From the NCBI RefSeq assembly GCF_026013525.1, contig NZ_JAPDRA010000002.1:124001-188000 (forward strand): 64,000 bases of DNA, given 5' to 3'. Below are positions 31,280 to 39,412 of the stretch, one piece after another (the stretch's first letter is position 1; each line of letters begins with the position of its first letter). The notes beneath the pieces were generated by a model that was not told where the DNA came from, did no database searches, and worked only from the letters and a program-made list of their open reading frames with translations. This stretch comes from Sphingomonas canadensis (GTDB taxonomy: Bacteria > Pseudomonadota > Alphaproteobacteria > Sphingomonadales > Sphingomonadaceae). Made by a program: the position numbers and the translations under genes.

Positions 31280-31508
31280 GCTTGTGGCGATGGCGCGGCG
31301 GCGCCGCCCGCCGGGCCGCATCCGGCGCATGTTGCCCCGCAGCATCGTCATAATCCCGTCATTTTACTGACCCGCTAGAGTCTTCGAACTCGCACGCCCG
31401 AGTCATGCTCCGTCCGTAGCGCGGCCCTTGCGATCGGCAGGGGGAACCGAGTCGATCCCGCACGACCCGCACCCGCTCAACCCGGCCTTCCGCCGGAACG
31501 GAGATTTT

Positions 31509-33188
31509 ATGGCAAGCATGCACCGCCGTCTTGGCCTCATCCTCATGACAAGCTGCGCCGGCGTAGCGCTGAGCGCCTGCGATGGCGCCGTGAGCGTCGG
31601 TTCGCCCGGTGAGGGCGTGATCGTCGTTCCCGCGCCGGCTCCCGCGCCGACCCCGACGCCGACCCCGACCCCGACGCCGACCCCGGGTACTCCGGCCGCG
31701 TCCTGCCCGTCGGGCACCACCGACGTGGGCGTCGTCGGCTCGTTCCGCGGCTGCCGCCTGCCGTCGCTGATCACCGGCACGACCACGCTCGCGAAGCTCC
31801 CGGGCGTCGCCTATGAGATCAACAGCCGCGTCGACGTGGGCATCGACATGGGCGGCGCCGGCACCGCTCCGGGCGGGTCGAGCGCGATCCTGACCGTGCA
31901 GCCCGGCGTGATCCTCTATGCCAACGCCTCGAACGCCGACAATGACTTCATGGTCATCAACCGTGGTTCGCGCATCCTGGCCGAGGGCACCGAGACGCTG
32001 CCGATCATCTTCACCTCGCAGCAGAACCTGGCCGGCACCGCGACCGAGGAGTCGCAGGGCCAGTGGGGCGGCCTGATCCTGGCCGGCCGCGCGCCTGTCT
32101 CGAACTGCAACCTGGGCGGCACCACCGGCGGCGCCGCGAACTGCGAGAACGTGGTCGAAGGCACCGGCACCGCGCTGTACGGCGGCAACGCGCCGGCCGA
32201 CAACAGCGGCACGCTGCGCTACGTCCAGTTCCGCTTCTCGGGCACCACGCTGGCGCCCGACGTCGAGCTGCAGAGCCTGACGCTGGGCGGCGTGGGCTAT
32301 GGCACCACGATCGATCACGTCCATTCGCACAACAGCTCGGACGACGGCATCGAGATCTTCGGCGGTCGCGCGAACATGAAGTATGTGGCGATCACCGGCG
32401 CCGATGACGACAGCTTCGACTTCGATGTGGGTTGGCGCGGCCAGGTGCAGTTCCTGCTGGCGGTGCAGAAGCCGACGAACACCCAGTCGGACAACTACAT
32501 GATGGAGATCGACTCCAACAACAACGACGACGCGCTGCCGCGCACCTGGGGCCAGATCGCCAATTTCACGTTCGTCCACACCAACTCGAACGCCAACCAG
32601 CCGGCGCTTCGCATCCGCGGTGCGGCCGATGTCCGCCTGGTGAACGGCATCGTCGTGACGCCGAACGCCTGCATGGTCACCGCGGCCAGCGCGGTCGTGG
32701 GTGCCGACAAGACGACGATTCGCCCGGCGGACTCGACGCCCTCGAGCACCTCGCCGAGCGCCGCCGAGAGCCTGGGCGCGCTGGCCGACTTCGGCCCGCC
32801 GAAGCTCCAGTCGATGTACTTCGCCTGCGGCGCGACCAAATATGCCACCACCACGGTGAACGGCGTCAGCGTCACCGCGGCGGAGCAGCAGGCCTTTACC
32901 GAAATCCCGGGCAACAATGTGGAGATCAACGGCACCGCGGCGAACGCGCTGACCAGCGGCTTCCTGCCCGGCACGGGCGCCGCGGGCATCACCGCGGTGA
33001 ACGCTGCGAACTTCAACCCGCAGCCCGCGTCCGGCCTGGCCGCGTTCTTCGTCAACGCCGCCTATCTCGGCGCGATCTCGCCGACGGCGGGCGATCCGAA
33101 CGCGACCTGGTTCCAGAAGTGGACCTGCAACTCCAACCGGGCGAACTTCGGCTCGGCGAGCGGCAACTGCACCGCGCTGCCGCTCTGA
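31509..33188 (+). CDS. Surface/secreted lipoprotein with Pro-Thr linker, partner of a TonB-dependent receptor
   Basis: The 559-residue lipoprotein has a lipobox 'ALSAC' (Cys24) and then a low-complexity Ala-Pro/Pro-Thr linker at about residues 41-58. The rest is a repetitive, strand-rich domain with 'ILTVQPGVILYANASNADNDFMVINRGSRILAEG', 'GQWGGLILAG' and 'HSHNSSDDGIEIFGG'. It looks like a right-handed beta-helix, and proteins of this look commonly precede a TonB-dependent receptor gene, as here 82 bases downstream. Several Cys pairs suggest disulfides. I know no defined function. ATG at 31509 with GGAG 5 bases upstream. Confidence 0.8.
   Translation: MASMHRRLGLILMTSCAGVALSACDGAVSVGSPGEGVIVVPAPAPAPTPTPTPTPTPTPGTPAASCPSGTTDVGVVGSFRGCRLPSLITGTTTLAKLPGVAYEINSRVDVGIDMGGAGTAPGGSSAILTVQPGVILYANASNADNDFMVINRGSRILAEGTETLPIIFTSQQNLAGTATEESQGQWGGLILAGRAPVSNCNLGGTTGGAANCENVVEGTGTALYGGNAPADNSGTLRYVQFRFSGTTLAPDVELQSLTLGGVGYGTTIDHVHSHNSSDDGIEIFGGRANMKYVAITGADDDSFDFDVGWRGQVQFLLAVQKPTNTQSDNYMMEIDSNNNDDALPRTWGQIANFTFVHTNSNANQPALRIRGAADVRLVNGIVVTPNACMVTAASAVVGADKTTIRPADSTPSSTSPSAAESLGALADFGPPKLQSMYFACGATKYATTTVNGVSVTAAEQQAFTEIPGNNVEINGTAANALTSGFLPGTGAAGITAVNAANFNPQPASGLAAFFVNAAYLGAISPTAGDPNATWFQKWTCNSNRANFGSASGNCTALPL
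31647..31684 (+). repeat. CCGACC/CCGACG tandem repeat encoding a Pro-Thr linker
   Basis: About six copies of the hexamer CCGACC or CCGACG encode alternating Pro and Thr just after the lipobox of the lipoprotein. The unit is in frame, so slippage would lengthen or shorten the linker by Pro-Thr pairs without breaking the gene. Confidence 0.85.
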
Positions 33189-33270
33189 GCTGACGCGCAT
33201 CGCGGGGCGCGGGGCGGCCATGGCGCCGCTCCGCGCCTCGTTTCCAAATGACCACAGCCGGGATACGCCG

Positions 33271-36018
33271 ATGAAAAAGCCGCTCGCCTTGGGGAGCCTT
33301 CTCCTCGCAACCACGCAGTTGGTGGCGCCCGCAGCGCTCGCCCAGCAGGTCCAGGACGCGACCGCTCCCGCCACGGAGGATGCCCCCGCCACGGAAGAGG
33401 CGCCGCAGGAAGCACCCGCCGACGAGGGTGTCGATATCTCCGCGCCCGGCATGGACATGCAGGGAACCGACGAGATCGTCGTCGTCGGCCGCAACATCCC
33501 CAATGTGGTGCGCGCCACGCCGCAGGTCGTATCGGTGCTTTCCACCGAGGAGATCGCACGTACCGGCGAAGGTGACATCGCGGGCGCGCTGACCCGCGTG
33601 ACCGGCCTCAGCGTCGTCGGCAACGGCTTCGTCTATGTCCGCGGCCTTGGCGACCGCTATTCCTCGTCGATGCTCAACGGATCGCCGCTGCCCAGCCCGG
33701 AGCCGCTGAAGCGCGTCGTGCCGCTCGACATCTTCCCGACCAACGTCGTCGCATCGGCGCTGGTGCAGAAGAGCTATTCGGTGAACTATCCGGCCGAGTT
33801 CGGCGGCGGCGTGATCAACCTCACGACCCGCGCCGTGCCGCGTGAGGCGTTCATCACCGCCGGCGCGTCGGTGGGTTTCGACACGTCCACCACCAGCGAG
33901 CTGGGCTATGTCTATGACGGCGGCGAAGCCGATTTCTTCGGCTATGACTCGGGCGAGCGCGACGTTCCGTCGGTGATCCTGGACGCGGGGCGCAACCGCA
34001 CCGCGATCCTGACGTCGAACCAGATCACCGGCCTGACCAACGCCGAGACGACGCTGGTCCAGACCAACTACCACATCCCGCCCAATCTTTCGTGGGACCT
34101 GAGCGCGGGCGGATCGATCGACGTCGGCACCGTGCGCCTGGGCGCGATCGCGGCAGGCGGCTTCAGCAACTCGTGGCGCACGCGCGATGCGATCCAGCAG
34201 TTCGCCGGCGACAACGACGGCGGCCTGACCAAGGATTTCCGCACCGTAACCACCGACAACCGCGTGCTGGTGAACGGCCTGCTGGGCCTGGGCGCGGAGT
34301 TCGGCGAGCACAAGATCCGCCTGACCAACGTCTACATCCACGACACGATCAAGCAGACCAGCCTGGGTGCGGGCGGCGAAGGCAACAACTTCGACGTGAT
34401 CAACGGCAACCAGCCGTTCATCGACCAGTCGACCAACTGGTTCGAGCGCCAGCTCATCAACTCGCAGATCGCGGGCGAATTCCGCTTCGGCGATCTCTCG
34501 GTCGATGCGCGCGGCTCCTATGCCAACACCAAGCGCAAGTCGCCGTATGAGCGCTATTTCCGCTACCAGTTCATCGAATCGATCTTCTCGACCCCGGTGA
34601 ACGACTACGTCAACACGCTGGGCACGCTGACCCCGGCGACGGTGGCGTTCAGCGATCTGGACGAGACGCTGTGGGGCGGCCAGTTGGACCTCGCCTACCG
34701 CATCCCCACCGATTTCCCCTTCTCGGTCTCGGCGGGCTATTATTACAGCGACACCGACCGCTTCTCGAGCCGTTACCAGTTCCAATATTACGGCCCGAAC
34801 GGCAGCTCGCTGCCGCTGGTGCTCGGCCAGCTCCGGCCCGATTACCTGCTGTCGGACGATACCATCCTCAACGGCTGCTCGCGCTGGATCCCGGGTTTCA
34901 CCGGAACGAGCTGCATCGAGCTGCACAACACCACCGCGGCCTCGGGCGCGGCGGAATATGAGGGCGCGCTGACGATCAACGCCGGCTATGGCCAGGTGGA
35001 GATCGAGCCGATCGCCGATCTGCGCGCCACCGTGGGCGTGCGTTACGAGGATGCGGTGGAGAGCGTCGACACCAGCGGCCTGCTCAACACGCGCCTCGCC
35101 AACGGCTACTGGCTGCCGGCGGCGACGCTGACCTGGGGTTTCCGCGAGAACTGGCAGCTTCGCCTGCATGCGTCGAAGACGATCGCGCGCCCGCAGTTCC
35201 GCGAGCTCGCGCCCCAGCTCTACACCGATTACGACACGGGCCGTCAGTTCTTCGGCAACCCGCTGCTCAACGACTCGCAGCTCTACAACTATGAGGCGCG
35301 GCTCGAATGGTTCTTCGGGCGCGACCAGCGGGTGACCGCGGCGGGCTTCTACAAGAAGATCAAGAACCCGATCGAGACGGTGGCCTTCTTCCCCGGCGGC
35401 GCCAACTCGCCGCAGGTCGGCTTCTCCTATGCCCCCGGCGCGATCCTGTGGGGCGGCGAGGTCGATGTGCAGAAGTATTTCCCGCTCGACTTCCTCGGTT
35501 CGGGCTTCGAGACGCGGCGCCTGCTGCTGGCGGCGAACTATACCTACACCAAGTCGGAGCTGCAGGTCGGCACCGAGCTGGTGCCGAGCCCGCTGCAGGG
35601 CGCGGTGGCGACCTATGTCCCGGCGAACAACCTGTTCGTCGACGGCGATCCGCTGGTCGGCCAGTCGAACCACATCGCCAACTTCCAGTTCGGCATCGAG
35701 GACAAGGAAACCACCTCGCAGCTCACCTTCCTGGCGACCTACGCCAGCGAGCGCGTGACCACCCGCGGCCCCGTGCCGCCGAGCGGCACCGGCGTTCCGG
35801 AGCCGAACATTGTCGAGCTGCCGGGCTGGCGTTTCGACATCGTCGCGCGTCAGGGATTTCGCGTGCTGGGCACCGATCTTGAGATCAAGTTCGAGGCGCG
35901 GAACATCACGCGGCGGAAGTATGAGGAATATCAGGTCTTCCCGAACGGTGTGCGGCGTGACATCAATAGCTACGCGCTGGGCCGGAACTTCTCGATCGGG
36001 CTTAGCGCGACCTTTTGA
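33271..36018 (+). CDS. TonB-dependent outer-membrane receptor
   Basis: The 915-residue protein has a signal peptide ending 'PAALAQ' and a Pro/Glu/Ala-rich spacer (residues ~30-60). A TonB-box-like 'DEIVVVGR' follows, then a plug domain ('VVSVLSTEEIARTGEGDIAGALTRVTG', 'VYVRGLGDRYSSSMLNG') and a 22-strand-type barrel ending in Phe. It imports a substrate with TonB energy. The immediately upstream lipoprotein is likely its surface partner or substrate-binding component. The ligand is unknown. ATG at 33271 chosen because it opens the signal peptide. Confidence 0.93.
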   Translation: MKKPLALGSLLLATTQLVAPAALAQQVQDATAPATEDAPATEEAPQEAPADEGVDISAPGMDMQGTDEIVVVGRNIPNVVRATPQVVSVLSTEEIARTGEGDIAGALTRVTGLSVVGNGFVYVRGLGDRYSSSMLNGSPLPSPEPLKRVVPLDIFPTNVVASALVQKSYSVNYPAEFGGGVINLTTRAVPREAFITAGASVGFDTSTTSELGYVYDGGEADFFGYDSGERDVPSVILDAGRNRTAILTSNQITGLTNAETTLVQTNYHIPPNLSWDLSAGGSIDVGTVRLGAIAAGGFSNSWRTRDAIQQFAGDNDGGLTKDFRTVTTDNRVLVNGLLGLGAEFGEHKIRLTNVYIHDTIKQTSLGAGGEGNNFDVINGNQPFIDQSTNWFERQLINSQIAGEFRFGDLSVDARGSYANTKRKSPYERYFRYQFIESIFSTPVNDYVNTLGTLTPATVAFSDLDETLWGGQLDLAYRIPTDFPFSVSAGYYYSDTDRFSSRYQFQYYGPNGSSLPLVLGQLRPDYLLSDDTILNGCSRWIPGFTGTSCIELHNTTAASGAAEYEGALTINAGYGQVEIEPIADLRATVGVRYEDAVESVDTSGLLNTRLANGYWLPAATLTWGFRENWQLRLHASKTIARPQFRELAPQLYTDYDTGRQFFGNPLLNDSQLYNYEARLEWFFGRDQRVTAAGFYKKIKNPIETVAFFPGGANSPQVGFSYAPGAILWGGEVDVQKYFPLDFLGSGFETRRLLLAANYTYTKSELQVGTELVPSPLQGAVATYVPANNLFVDGDPLVGQSNHIANFQFGIEDKETTSQLTFLATYASERVTTRGPVPPSGTGVPEPNIVELPGWRFDIVARQGFRVLGTDLEIKFEARNITRRKYEEYQVFPNGVRRDINSYALGRNFSIGLSATF

Positions 36019-36133: not shown

Positions 36134-36832
36134 TCACCAGCCCCAGGGGCGCTCGCGATACCATTTGGTGATCACATATTTCCGCCCGGCGCGGACCTTC
36201 ATCGCATGATGCAGCGTCGAAGGGTTCGGCGTGCCGTTGGGACGCAGGTTGTTCCAGGTGACCAGCTTGCCGGTTTCCGGCTGGATGATCTTGTCGAGCG
36301 CCTTGAACCGGGTCGCGCCGCCGGCCTCGACATCGTTGAGATAGACCATCGCCGTCCAGGTCCGCTGGCCCGCGATCGTGCAGAATTTGGCGAAATCGGC
36401 GCCCGAGGGCTCGAAATAGTCGGTGTGCGCCTTGAACTCCTGCCCGATCTCATAGCGCTGGCCCTGGAGCGGCTCGCCGTGCGCGGGATCGAGGCCCAGG
36501 AAGTCCGCGATCCGCGCCTCCACCCCGGCGACAAGCGGGTCGGCCGGGTCCAGGTCGCACGTCTCGCTGGTGCGGAAGGCATAGTCGCCATTGTGATCGG
36601 AGATGGTGGACGGGCGCCGGTCCGCCTCGATCCGCTCGACCAGCGCGGCACAGGCCTCCGGCGTCAGGAAGTCGCGGACGACGAACAGCGAAACCTTGGG
36701 GCTGGGCACGCGCTGAACCCCGGGGTGGGCGGCGATGCGCGCCACCACCGGCTCCGAAGGGTGCCCCGAACCGAAGTTCGCGCCCATGTCGGCTGGCGTG
36801 GCGGCGGGCGTAGCGGCGGGAATCTCGGCCAT
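36134..36832 (-). CDS. 2-oxoglutarate/Fe(II)-dependent prolyl 4-hydroxylase-like dioxygenase
   Basis: The 232-residue protein has the P4Hc domain. The visible iron ligands are His136 and Asp138 in 'AHTDYF' and a distal His208 or His209 in 'TLHHAMKV', and the 2-oxoglutarate-binding Lys is in 'RKYVITKW'. Such enzymes hydroxylate prolines or other residues in proteins. The nearby tyrosinase and lipoprotein have Pro-rich stretches, but a link is only speculation. I take the ATG at 36832; a longer frame to 36958 encodes a basic stretch with no family match. Confidence 0.88.
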   Translation of the reverse strand: MAEIPAATPAATPADMGANFGSGHPSEPVVARIAAHPGVQRVPSPKVSLFVVRDFLTPEACAALVERIEADRRPSTISDHNGDYAFRTSETCDLDPADPLVAGVEARIADFLGLDPAHGEPLQGQRYEIGQEFKAHTDYFEPSGADFAKFCTIAGQRTWTAMVYLNDVEAGGATRFKALDKIIQPETGKLVTWNNLRPNGTPNPSTLHHAMKVRAGRKYVITKWYRERPWGW

Positions 36833-36972
36833 CGCGGGCTTCTTGCCAAATCGCCGGAGCCGTTTCCAGTGCCGCCCGCAACTGCCATCGCGACGTAACA
36901 AAAGCGCAAGCGGCACGTCACAAAACCGCCCTACGCGGAACGCTCCAAAGGTAATCACGGCAAAGCTGCGGC

Positions 36973-38133
36973 ATGGAGCTGGAAACCCAAGCGCTGGTGC
37001 TGGAACCGGAGGCGCGCCCCGCAGGCGCGCGCCCGGGCGGCGGCGCCGTGTCCGGGCTGGTCGGCACGATCCTGGCGGAAGCGGTCGCGCGCGAGGCGAC
37101 CCATGTTCATCTGGAGCTGGGCGCGGAGGCGGCGCGCGTGCGCATGCGCGTGGCGGGGCGGCTGACCGAGCCGATGCCGGTGGCGGGCGGCGCCGAAGCC
37201 GCGGATGCGCTGCGCAGGCTGGACCTTGGCGGGTTGCGCGTCGCGGGCCGCGAGGTGAGCGTGGCGACGCTGGCCACGCCCGAGGCCGATCGCATCGTGC
37301 TTCACCTGGGCGCCCTGGCGCAGGGCAACGGCGCGCTCGAGGCGCTGGGCATGCGCGCGCCGCTGATCCAGTCGCTGGAGCCGCTGTTCGAGCGGCCGGA
37401 GGGGCTGGTGCTGGTGGCGGGGCCTCCCAAATCGGGCAAGCGCACCACGCTGCGCGCGCTGTTGCACCGGCTGGACAATGGCGCGCGCAACCTGCTGGCG
37501 GTCGAGGATTTCGATGGGCCGCCGATGCCGGGCGTCGGCCGGGTGATCGCCGATCCCGCGCGCGGATGCCGCGTGGCGGAGGGATTGCACGCGCTGCTGC
37601 GGCAGGATCCGGATGCCGTGCTGGTAAGCCGCGTCGCCGATCGCGAGACCGCCGCGGCGGCCCTGCAGGCGGCGCAGAGCGGCCGGCTCGTCCTTGCCGG
37701 CGTGCCTGCGCCGAACGCGGTGGGCGCGATCCGGCTGATGCGCGAGCTGCGCATCGAGCCCTTCCTGCTGGCCTCCACGCTGCGCGCGGTGATCGCGCAA
37801 CGGCTGGTGAAGCGGCTGTGCCGTGAATGCCGCCAGCCGGTGCAGGCGCAGGGATCGGTATCGTCGCTGCTCGGCTTCGATCCGGGCGTGGTGGTCTATG
37901 CGCCGGCCGGCTGCGATGCGTGCGGCGGCACCGGCTATGACGGCATGACCGGGGTGTTCGAAGGGATTGTGGCCGATTCGGCGCTGCGCCGCCTGATCAA
38001 TGACGGCGGCGATGAGGCGATCATCGCCCGCCACGCATTCCTGAACGCGCCGAACCTGGGGTCGGCCGCCCGCGCGCTGGCGCGCGAAGGCGTCACCACG
38101 CCCGAGGAAGCGGTGCGCGTGTCGCGCGGCTAG
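36973..38133 (+). CDS. Degenerate GspE/PilB-type secretion ATPase, stand-alone
   Basis: The 386-residue protein aligns with the C-terminal ATPase half of GspE/PilB, including the zinc Cys pairs 'CREC' and 'CDAC' near residue 305 and the end pattern 'DGMTGVFEGIVADSALR'. Key catalytic parts are altered. Walker A reads GPPKSGKR with Arg where Thr is expected. The Walker B region reads 'LVSRVADRE' where LVGEIRD is usual, so the Glu is lost. The His box 'STLH' is replaced by 'AGVPAPN'. The N-terminal domain that binds the inner-membrane platform is missing. No other secretion or pilus genes lie nearby. Confidence 0.75.
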   Translation: MELETQALVLEPEARPAGARPGGGAVSGLVGTILAEAVAREATHVHLELGAEAARVRMRVAGRLTEPMPVAGGAEAADALRRLDLGGLRVAGREVSVATLATPEADRIVLHLGALAQGNGALEALGMRAPLIQSLEPLFERPEGLVLVAGPPKSGKRTTLRALLHRLDNGARNLLAVEDFDGPPMPGVGRVIADPARGCRVAEGLHALLRQDPDAVLVSRVADRETAAAALQAAQSGRLVLAGVPAPNAVGAIRLMRELRIEPFLLASTLRAVIAQRLVKRLCRECRQPVQAQGSVSSLLGFDPGVVVYAPAGCDACGGTGYDGMTGVFEGIVADSALRRLINDGGDEAIIARHAFLNAPNLGSAARALAREGVTTPEEAVRVSRG

Positions 38134-38225: not shown

Positions 38226-38302
38226 GCGATCGTAGCTCAGTTGGTTAGAGCACCGGTTTGTGGTACCGGGGGTCGCGGGTTCAAGTCCCGTCGATCGCCC
38301 CA
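38226..38302 (+). tRNA. tRNA-His (anticodon GUG)
   Basis: The 77-base cloverleaf has the extra 5' G(-1) opposite C73 that is specific to tRNA-His. The acceptor stem is GCGATCG/CGATCGC, the anticodon stem CCGGT/ACCGG surrounds TTGTGGT (anticodon GTG), and CCA is encoded at 38300-38302. The amino acid dehydrogenase start is 60 bases downstream on the same strand. Confidence 0.97.
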
Positions 38303-38362: not shown

Positions 38363-39412
38363 GTGATCACCGACTGGGGCTTCCCCGATTTCGATGCCCA
38401 TGAGGGCGTTCACCTGTTTACCGATCGCGAATCGGGGCTGAGCGCGGTCGTCGCGGTGCATTCCACCGCGCTGGGGCCGGCCGCGGGCGGCGTGCGCTTC
38501 TGGCACTATGCAGATTCGCGCGGCGCCTTCACCGATGCGCTGCGCCTGTCGCGGGGCATGAGCTACAAGAACGCGATGGCCGGGCTGGCGCTGGGCGGGG
38601 GCAAGGGCGTGATCCTGGCCGACGCCGCGCGCACCAAGACGCCGGAGATGCTCCGCGCCTTTGCCCGCGCGATCAACACGCTCGGCGGCCGCTATGTCAC
38701 CGCGCAGGACGTTGGGATGAGCGCGGCGGACATCGCGGCGATCGCTTCGGACACGCGCTATGTCTCCGGCCTTCCGGCCGAGGCGGGCAAGCCGGGCGGC
38801 GATCCGGGGCCGACCACCGCGACGGGCGTCTACCTGGGTATCAAGGCGGCTGCGAAGCGCGGGCTGGGCGCCGATACGATGGCGGGTGTGCGCGTGGCGA
38901 TCCAGGGCGTGGGCAGCGTGGGCGGCGGCGTGGCACGCAAGCTGGCGGCCGACGGCGCCCGGCTGATGCTGGCCGATGTGGACACCGCGCGCGCAGCCGC
39001 GCTGGCGGCGGAGCTGGGCGCGGATACGGCGGATACGGCGGAGATTCTGTCGCTGGAAACCGACATCGTCAGCCCCAACGCGCTGGGCGCGATCCTGACC
39101 GAATCCGCGATCGCGGGGCTGCGCTGCCAGGTGGTGGCCGGCGGCGCGAACAACCAGCTCGCCACCGCCCAGGACGGGCGCCGGCTGCACGAGCGCGGCA
39201 TCCTCTATGCCCCCGATTACGTGATCAACGCGGGCGGCATCATCAACGTCGGGCTCGAGTATCTGGGCGTCGAGGACCGCGCCGAGGTGGACCGCAAGGT
39301 GGAAGCCATCCCCGCGCGGCTGAACCAGGTTTGGGACGAGAGCGAAGCGAGCGGCGACCCCGCCAGCCTGGTCGCCGACCGGATCGCCCAGCGGCTGATC
39401 GGCCGGGGCTGA
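38363..39412 (+). CDS. Leu/Phe/Val-type NAD-dependent amino acid dehydrogenase
   Basis: The 349-residue protein of the Glu/Leu/Phe/Val dehydrogenase family has active-site Lys69 ('SYKNAMAGLALGGGKG') and Lys81, the positions used in leucine dehydrogenase (Lys68 and Lys80 there). The NAD-binding 'IQGVGSVGGGVARKL' follows. It reversibly deaminates a branched-chain amino acid to the 2-oxo acid. The GTG at 38363 has AGGA upstream and gives a family-typical length. It probably has a promoter in or after the tRNA-His gene. It is convergent with the gene at 39474. Confidence 0.9.
   Translation: MITDWGFPDFDAHEGVHLFTDRESGLSAVVAVHSTALGPAAGGVRFWHYADSRGAFTDALRLSRGMSYKNAMAGLALGGGKGVILADAARTKTPEMLRAFARAINTLGGRYVTAQDVGMSAADIAAIASDTRYVSGLPAEAGKPGGDPGPTTATGVYLGIKAAAKRGLGADTMAGVRVAIQGVGSVGGGVARKLAADGARLMLADVDTARAAALAAELGADTADTAEILSLETDIVSPNALGAILTESAIAGLRCQVVAGGANNQLATAQDGRRLHERGILYAPDYVINAGGIINVGLEYLGVEDRAEVDRKVEAIPARLNQVWDESEASGDPASLVADRIAQRLIGRG

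Follow-up and report, generated by a model that had tools for sequence, protein, structure and literature searches.

The window, a 64,000-nucleotide stretch of the Sphingomonas canadensis genome, contains at positions 36973..38133 of the plus strand a stand-alone gene (386 aa, ATG start, TAG stop) whose product is descended from GspE but does not pass as a working one; it is a pseudoenzyme. Judged from its sequence and surroundings, the gene is the last gene of a lost type II secretion system (T2SS-A) operon, left in its original place. We call this gene and its counterparts at the same site gspE relics. On balance, we consider it probable that the T2SS-A gspE remnant has been kept as a non-catalytic docking module, with a second secretion system (T2SS-B) tentatively named as the likeliest single partner. 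A relic lies at the same site between the same flanking genes in 69 of 295 genomes of the genus, and the view taken of it in the preliminary description, that of a conserved pseudo-ATPase, is well supported by these 69 syntenic copies, which share the same three catalytic losses and have dN/dS values well below 1.

The GspE/PilB C-terminal domain order and the zinc Cys pairs recognised in that description were confirmed. The Pfam T2SSE profile matched residues 26-382 of the window protein at 189.7 bits (cut-off 24.9), and Cys283, Cys286, Cys314 and Cys317 are kept. The NCBIfam GspE equivalog model (TIGR02533) scored 250.6, below its cut-off of 630.25, and the NCBIfam PilB model 193.7 bits, far below its cut-off of 675.65. 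With phmmer, residues 27-385 aligned to EpsE (E 7.4e-60), and identity to full-length GspE proteins of T2SS-A (GspE-A) was 43-55%. The N-terminal region had been described as absent, which is true of the N1E domain but not of the N2-like part. The Pfam profile search matched no N1E model in the window protein, while the same library found GSPE_N1E (PF22341) in the T2SS-B GspE of locus L170, which served as a positive control. The N2-like part is present in shortened form, at about residues 26-110, as seen in alignment with EpsE and full-length relatives. A single-sequence AlphaFold2 model of the window protein had a mean pLDDT of 38.1 and a pTM of 0.23 and was set aside.

The loss of the catalytic motifs also stood as described. 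Walker A reads GPPKSGKR (residues 150-157; 37420..37443, plus strand), with Arg for Thr and the Lys retained; Walker B reads VLVSRVADR (residues 216-224; 37618..37644, plus strand), with Arg220 in place of Glu; and the His box reads LAGVPAPN (residues 241-248; 37693..37716, plus strand), with Pro245 in place of His. Of the Asp box (VED...E), Glu178 and Asp179 are retained and the later Glu is not. From these residues we infer that the window protein no longer hydrolyses ATP. The catalytic losses recur in all 69 copies of the genus. No relic combines the Walker A Lys with Ser/Thr, none of the 68 relics with a residue in the relevant column has the Walker B Glu, and none of the 69 has the His of the His box, for which Asp or Glu is a regular replacement (58/69). 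The Asp box retains its Glu in 6/53, its Asp in 3/53 and its later Glu in 2/19 relics. As 68 further genomes carry a same-site relic with catalytic residues lost, the sequencing error that the preliminary description had allowed for does not account for the substitutions. Orthologues with intact boxes, which it had also named as counter-evidence, do literally exist as the GspE of T2SS-A species, but they do not refute the pseudo-ATPase state because intact GspE is the ancestral form. The retained Walker A Lys leaves room for a protein that might bind ATP without hydrolysing it and act as a nucleotide sensor. This reading would apply to the three copies with the Lys (the window, L163 and L164) among the 55 relics with a residue in that column; the other 52 have lost it, 37 of them to Arg, and the column is absent in 14 further relics. 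Given also the lack of a Lys and Ser/Thr pair in any relic, we regard a sensor as very unlikely.

The part of the protein that has been kept is its tail. This consists of a CM zinc module, Cys283-x2-Cys286-x27-Cys314-x2-Cys317 with the loop motif QA-x(4-6)-LLGxDxG (37819..37923, plus strand), and a conserved C-terminal extension (CTE; residues 326-386; 37948..38130, plus strand). All four Cys are present in 69/69 relics, and the x27 spacing of the window protein conforms to the rule for GspE, CXXC-x(21-40)-CXXC, in the portion of PMC5061722 available to us. The loop motif was found in 69/69 relics as opposed to 23/45 full-length GspE-A proteins. The entropy of the CM loop was 1.08 bits in relics versus 1.23 in full-length GspE-A, so that the loop is slightly more conserved in relics, in a set that is far more diverse (about 41 versus 4 effective sequences). 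Every other part compared was less conserved in relics than in full-length GspE-A, including the CTE (1.12 versus 0.73 bits), which counts against a docking role. The 45 GspE-A proteins are a biased sample because they were drawn from the best matches to the window; together with 11 relics they make up the 56 loci L002-L030 and L044-L070. Their Walker A is intact by construction because the filter required GPTGSGKTT, and no non-relic failed this filter. In 15 relics (L117-L131), most of the RecA part has been lost and the tail kept; their frames have 175-280 codons in 11 cases and are over-long at the N-terminus in the other four. Over-long N-termini occur in several relic frames, as the first start after a stop was used. 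In-frame TAGs in five relics were rejected, the TAGs lying outside the frames used.

That the gene stands alone was rightly noted, and would follow from its being the last gene of a T2SS operon whose remainder has been lost around it. To its left lies a gene for a 2OG-Fe(II) oxygenase (prolyl-4-hydroxylase-like; 36134..36958, minus strand; the true start may be later), and to its right a tRNA-His gene (38226..38302, plus strand) and a Glu/Leu/Phe/Val dehydrogenase gene (38363..39412, plus strand). The hydroxylase and dehydrogenase genes are the left and right flanks of the old T2SS-A operon. In loci L042 and L043 (genomes G003 and G033), about twelve genes stand in a row between these two flanks, and gspE lies within the row in the same orientation as the relic. 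Here the T2SS-A genes C to N were named by order and BLAST, and profile checks were limited to GspE and to the secretin and GspF of T2SS-B. Among seven full-operon loci read, both flanks were present in L042, L043 and L169, the dehydrogenase in L167, the hydroxylase in L168, and neither flank in L091 and L166. Of the 30 full-length GspE-A genomes tested, 28 have the dehydrogenase on the contig of gspE at a distance of 7.6-8.5 kb; in G287 the two are 1.49 Mb apart, and in G134 the dehydrogenase was not found.

At the relic loci, these flanks enclose nothing but the short gene, in some cases with a small insertion beside it. The dehydrogenase was in the stretch read at all 69 loci (inverted in L031, L101-L103, L105 and L108) and the hydroxylase at 67, with none found in L032 and L104. 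No match to type-A GspC, D, F, G, K, L, M or N was obtained in the relic loci. Genome-wide, the best match to GspF-A was of type B (38-42% identity) in all 69 relic genomes and likewise in all 36 relic-free genomes with T2SS-B, while control searches in two T2SS-A genomes gave 100% and 80% identity. The earlier statement that no pilus or type II secretion gene is nearby is correct for the locus, where no other T2SS-A gene was found, but T2SS-B lies about 219 kb from the relic on the same contig, outside the window. L091 and L132 were rejected as relics because other T2SS-A genes adjoin. In L111:4025-5143, L112:4050-5147 and L113:3794-4897, the relic frame lacks its usual stop and seems to enter the start of tRNA-His, ending in ...GDRSSIG or ...GDRGAIG. 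Another conserved neighbour encodes a TonB-dependent receptor (33220..36018, plus strand). It is adjoined by a gene for a 586-aa protein with no Pfam or NCBIfam match (31428..33188, plus strand), and the pair is found in the window and in all 10 other long loci compared, with identities of 37-91% between loci. The L042 homologue of the 586-aa protein has, judged by eye, a lipoprotein-like start. This protein may be a former T2SS-A substrate.

The 69 relics were collected by a genus-wide search (best 150 matches listed), rescans of 76 and 12 genomes with a relic profile, and reading of loci. GspE of type B (76-83% identity) is present in 105 of the 295 genomes, comprising all 69 with a relic and 36 without, and no full-length GspE-A or GspF-A was found in these 105. 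The 190 genomes without T2SS-B comprise about 182 with GspE-A, seven with neither system (among them G007 and G035, which are incomplete) and one with an unclear fragment (G291). All of the 182 except G012 and G211 match GspE-B at E 1e-128 or better, a level reached by full-length genes and not by relics; G012 and G211 are contig-edge fragments that were counted as GspE-A. T2SS-A and T2SS-B were never found together in these genomes. A search of the window's own genome and 60 relatives found full-length GspE frames in most of 36 same-genus genomes and short ones in some. In an order-wide search of 346 genomes, each of the best 150 matches that comes from beyond the genus has a frame of at least 493 codons, and a search of wider genome contigs returned three distant loci in other phyla at 29-39% identity.

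No relic was seen in the 34 relic-free loci that were read, 28 with T2SS-B and six with neither system; eight of the 36 relic-free T2SS-B genomes fall outside this set. The hydroxylase was found in 31 of the 34, 7-206 bp from tRNA-His. In relic-free genomes, tblastn matches to the 'E' query were rejected, as they overlap the hydroxylase gene on its opposite strand and arise from relic frames that are too long. Tail-only queries gave weak matches in nine of the 34 loci (E 4e-5 to 0.009), which were also rejected as relics. Eight of these end in the start of tRNA-His read in frame (coordinates were checked for five, and the other three have the same letters), and the ninth (L157) is located elsewhere and looks like chance.

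All 69 relics fell to the same side of one branch (SH-aLRT 100) in a quick GspE tree, the relic of the window coming closest to GspE-A, but this tree is unsure because long branches meet in it. A single-gene tree of the dehydrogenase needed 10 label changes. In it, three relic genomes including that of the window descend from a common fork (SH-aLRT 82) together with two T2SS-A genomes, and the T2SS-free genomes group with T2SS-A genomes. Relic-free T2SS-B genomes are scattered among relic genomes, for example L134 with L125 and L192 with L113, which suggests several losses. From these trees, the relics likely had one origin followed by several losses.

Repeated loss could also befit a pseudogene left over from the lost operon, decaying but still open by chance, as could the 36 T2SS-B genomes without a relic, the varying lengths and a motor that is strongly relaxed. 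We therefore turn to dN/dS, which is the real test, since relic frames were chosen stop to stop, without internal stops, and their openness says little. Using the Nei-Gojobori method on disjoint pairs with dS below 0.9, we compared 26 relic pairs with 21 pairs of full-length GspE-A; some pairs are distant and their dS is rough, and the closest pairs agree. Median dN/dS in relics was 0.22 for the whole gene, 0.28 for N2 (20 pairs), 0.21 for RecA and 0.12 for CM plus CTE, versus 0.07, 0.03, 0.02 and 0.11, respectively, in full-length GspE-A. Constraint is thus weakened about tenfold in the motor (N2 and RecA) but not in the tail. Whole-gene dN/dS was below 1 in all 26 relic pairs (0.07-0.70), and the RecA part exceeded 1 in one pair. 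A tail constrained as in working GspE, together with four Cys kept in every relic, leaves very little probability for a decaying pseudogene. We are highly confident that the relic is under selection, and we think it quite probable that CM plus CTE is its working part. Selection on the DNA rather than on the protein, for example to control tRNA-His or the dehydrogenase, would fit with the relic adjoining both in relic loci. However, fourfold sites vary over the CM loop about as elsewhere, if at the low end (1.22 bits versus 1.21-1.44 in other parts), so that the constraint is on the protein; moreover, the 34 relic-free loci keep tRNA-His or the dehydrogenase. A DNA element is therefore extremely unlikely.

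The question is then which partner such a protein would have. The window's own genome contains five T2SSE-family matches, namely the T2SS-B GspE, the relic and three others. Apart from the relic, the T2SS-B GspE alone has a match that extends over the tail; the three others do not cover it, and together with two T2SSF genes on another contig they presumably resemble Tad and type IV secretion ATPases. Among the T2SSE-family matches of this genome we recognised no type IVa pilus ATPase. T2SS-B is thus the likeliest single partner, and we name it as such tentatively, at less than even odds. T2SS-B is present in all 69 relic genomes, and its association with the relic (69/105 versus 0/7, Fisher 0.0009) deserves no weight, as the test ignores shared ancestry, which may be all that the association reflects.

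The gene content of T2SS-B did not separate 11 stretches with a relic from 12 relic-free ones. The set D, E, F, H, I, J, K, L, M and N was complete in 9/11 and 9/12, respectively; the two relic and three relic-free incomplete stretches lack a block of N, a binding-protein gene, J and K, and one of them also F, and this block may be located elsewhere. The GspG query frame was poor, and GspG misses carry no meaning. No component was consistently missing across the 12 relic-free stretches, which means that T2SS-B does not seem to need the relic and that any role of the relic would be accessory. A place for the relic in the hexamer is spoken against by the loss of N1E and much of N2, the parts that hold GspE in the machine. 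Docking to T2SS-B also has against it that the loops of EpsE and XcpR could be exchanged with no sign of a species-specific partner, as far as the accessible part of PMC5061722 goes.

Some T2SS-B clusters have features of their own. In some genomes gspF lies away from gspE, on another contig, about 165 kb away or about 3 kb away (G027:C1/C2, G316:C1 and G282:C5), and there the operon is broken up. A gene resembling those for periplasmic binding proteins (Peripla_BP_6, with a weak LppC match) is found in the cluster in 18/23 stretches (for example L039:11482-12552). A few T2SS-B genomes have a third, distant GspE-like gene of about 590-640 codons (G004:C23:59092-60231, G097:C1:44319-45458 and G151:C1:4760438-4761577) and/or an extra GspF-like gene at 35-36% identity (G115:C2:1192121-1193113, G210:C2:143928-144932, G212:C68:16814-18010 and G281:C4:27495-28469).

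The relic might instead have acquired a job outside secretion, as a small zinc-binding scaffold or regulator in the cytoplasm that serves, for example, the hydroxylase, receptor or dehydrogenase genes, its link to T2SS-B being one of ancestry. The near-constant presence of the dehydrogenase and hydroxylase beside it would fit, as would its survival without N1E and the maintenance of T2SS-B without it in other species. Yet these neighbours also occur in relic-free genomes, as the hydroxylase does at 31 of 34 such loci, and hence do not need the relic, and its fixed position may be mere inertia. We consider such a job unlikely.

In the explanation that we prefer, a docking module derived from T2SS-A GspE, the T2SS-A operon would have stood between hydroxylase and dehydrogenase in ancestors. 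Its other genes would have been deleted and gspE left in place, to lose the GspL-binding N1E domain and the residues for ATP hydrolysis without being discarded. The CM loop and CTE would then offer a conserved surface to a partner, which we guess to be a T2SS-B component, and the relic would modulate T2SS-B activity or substrate choice. It might do so by occupying or capping the GspE/GspF contact without ATP turnover, which is likewise a guess. That the CM zinc module and CTE are now a free-standing, selected docking protein, independent of the motor and perhaps acting in trans on a separately encoded secretion system, is a proposal to which we give slightly less than even credence. If true, a domain best known to date for stabilising the hexamer would prove to have a separable function. 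In dozens of species the motor has been disabled or removed and the CM domain retained, and some stretches of its loop vary less than they do in working GspE. With so clean an evolutionary pattern, the function of this domain becomes open to testing, and the relic would clearly exemplify the loss of a secretion operon with the reuse of one of its parts. The preliminary interpretation as a whole is partly supported: its pseudo-ATPase stands, and the regulator of a remote secretion machine or the scaffold that it proposed may apply.

Pseudoenzymes have lost catalytic residues and kept the fold for regulation. The relics resemble them in that the losses occur in all 69 while the protein is under selection, but they differ in that much of the fold has also gone in some relic species and the part kept is a zinc-binding tail. 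A literature search, part of whose results were off-topic, returned no report of a stand-alone gspE relic of this kind; PMC13217887, seen in part, was set aside as a precedent because it concerns another receptor locus. Non-catalytic roles have precedents in type IV pili: PilT subunits inactivated by Walker-box mutations still act by way of PilU, and mutation of Walker A in PilB alters exopolysaccharide production (both in the part of PMC11656802 at hand). Unlike the relics, however, PilT/PilU have no CM domain, the very part kept here, according to the sections of PMC5061722 seen. PilB shares the superfamily and the tail, but the window protein scores lower for PilB than for GspE. The closest comparison is with the ancestor itself, GspE/EpsE (PF00437; structure 1P9R), from which the relic has the order N2, RecA, CM and CTE and the CXXC-x27-CXXC motif, and from which it differs in having no N1E, Walker A Ser/Thr, Walker B Glu, His box or operon. 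In the portions of PMC5061722 available, the CM domain of EpsE lies on the outside of the hexamer and needs zinc, and its loop is poorly conserved; EpsE without CM is dominant negative; the loop can be exchanged for that of XcpR, with secretion more variable unless the hexamer is stabilised; and the role of the domain in GspE/PilB ATPases beyond hexamer stabilising is described as open. EpsE thus combines a poorly conserved loop with a motor, whereas in the relics the loop is fixed and the motor is gone.
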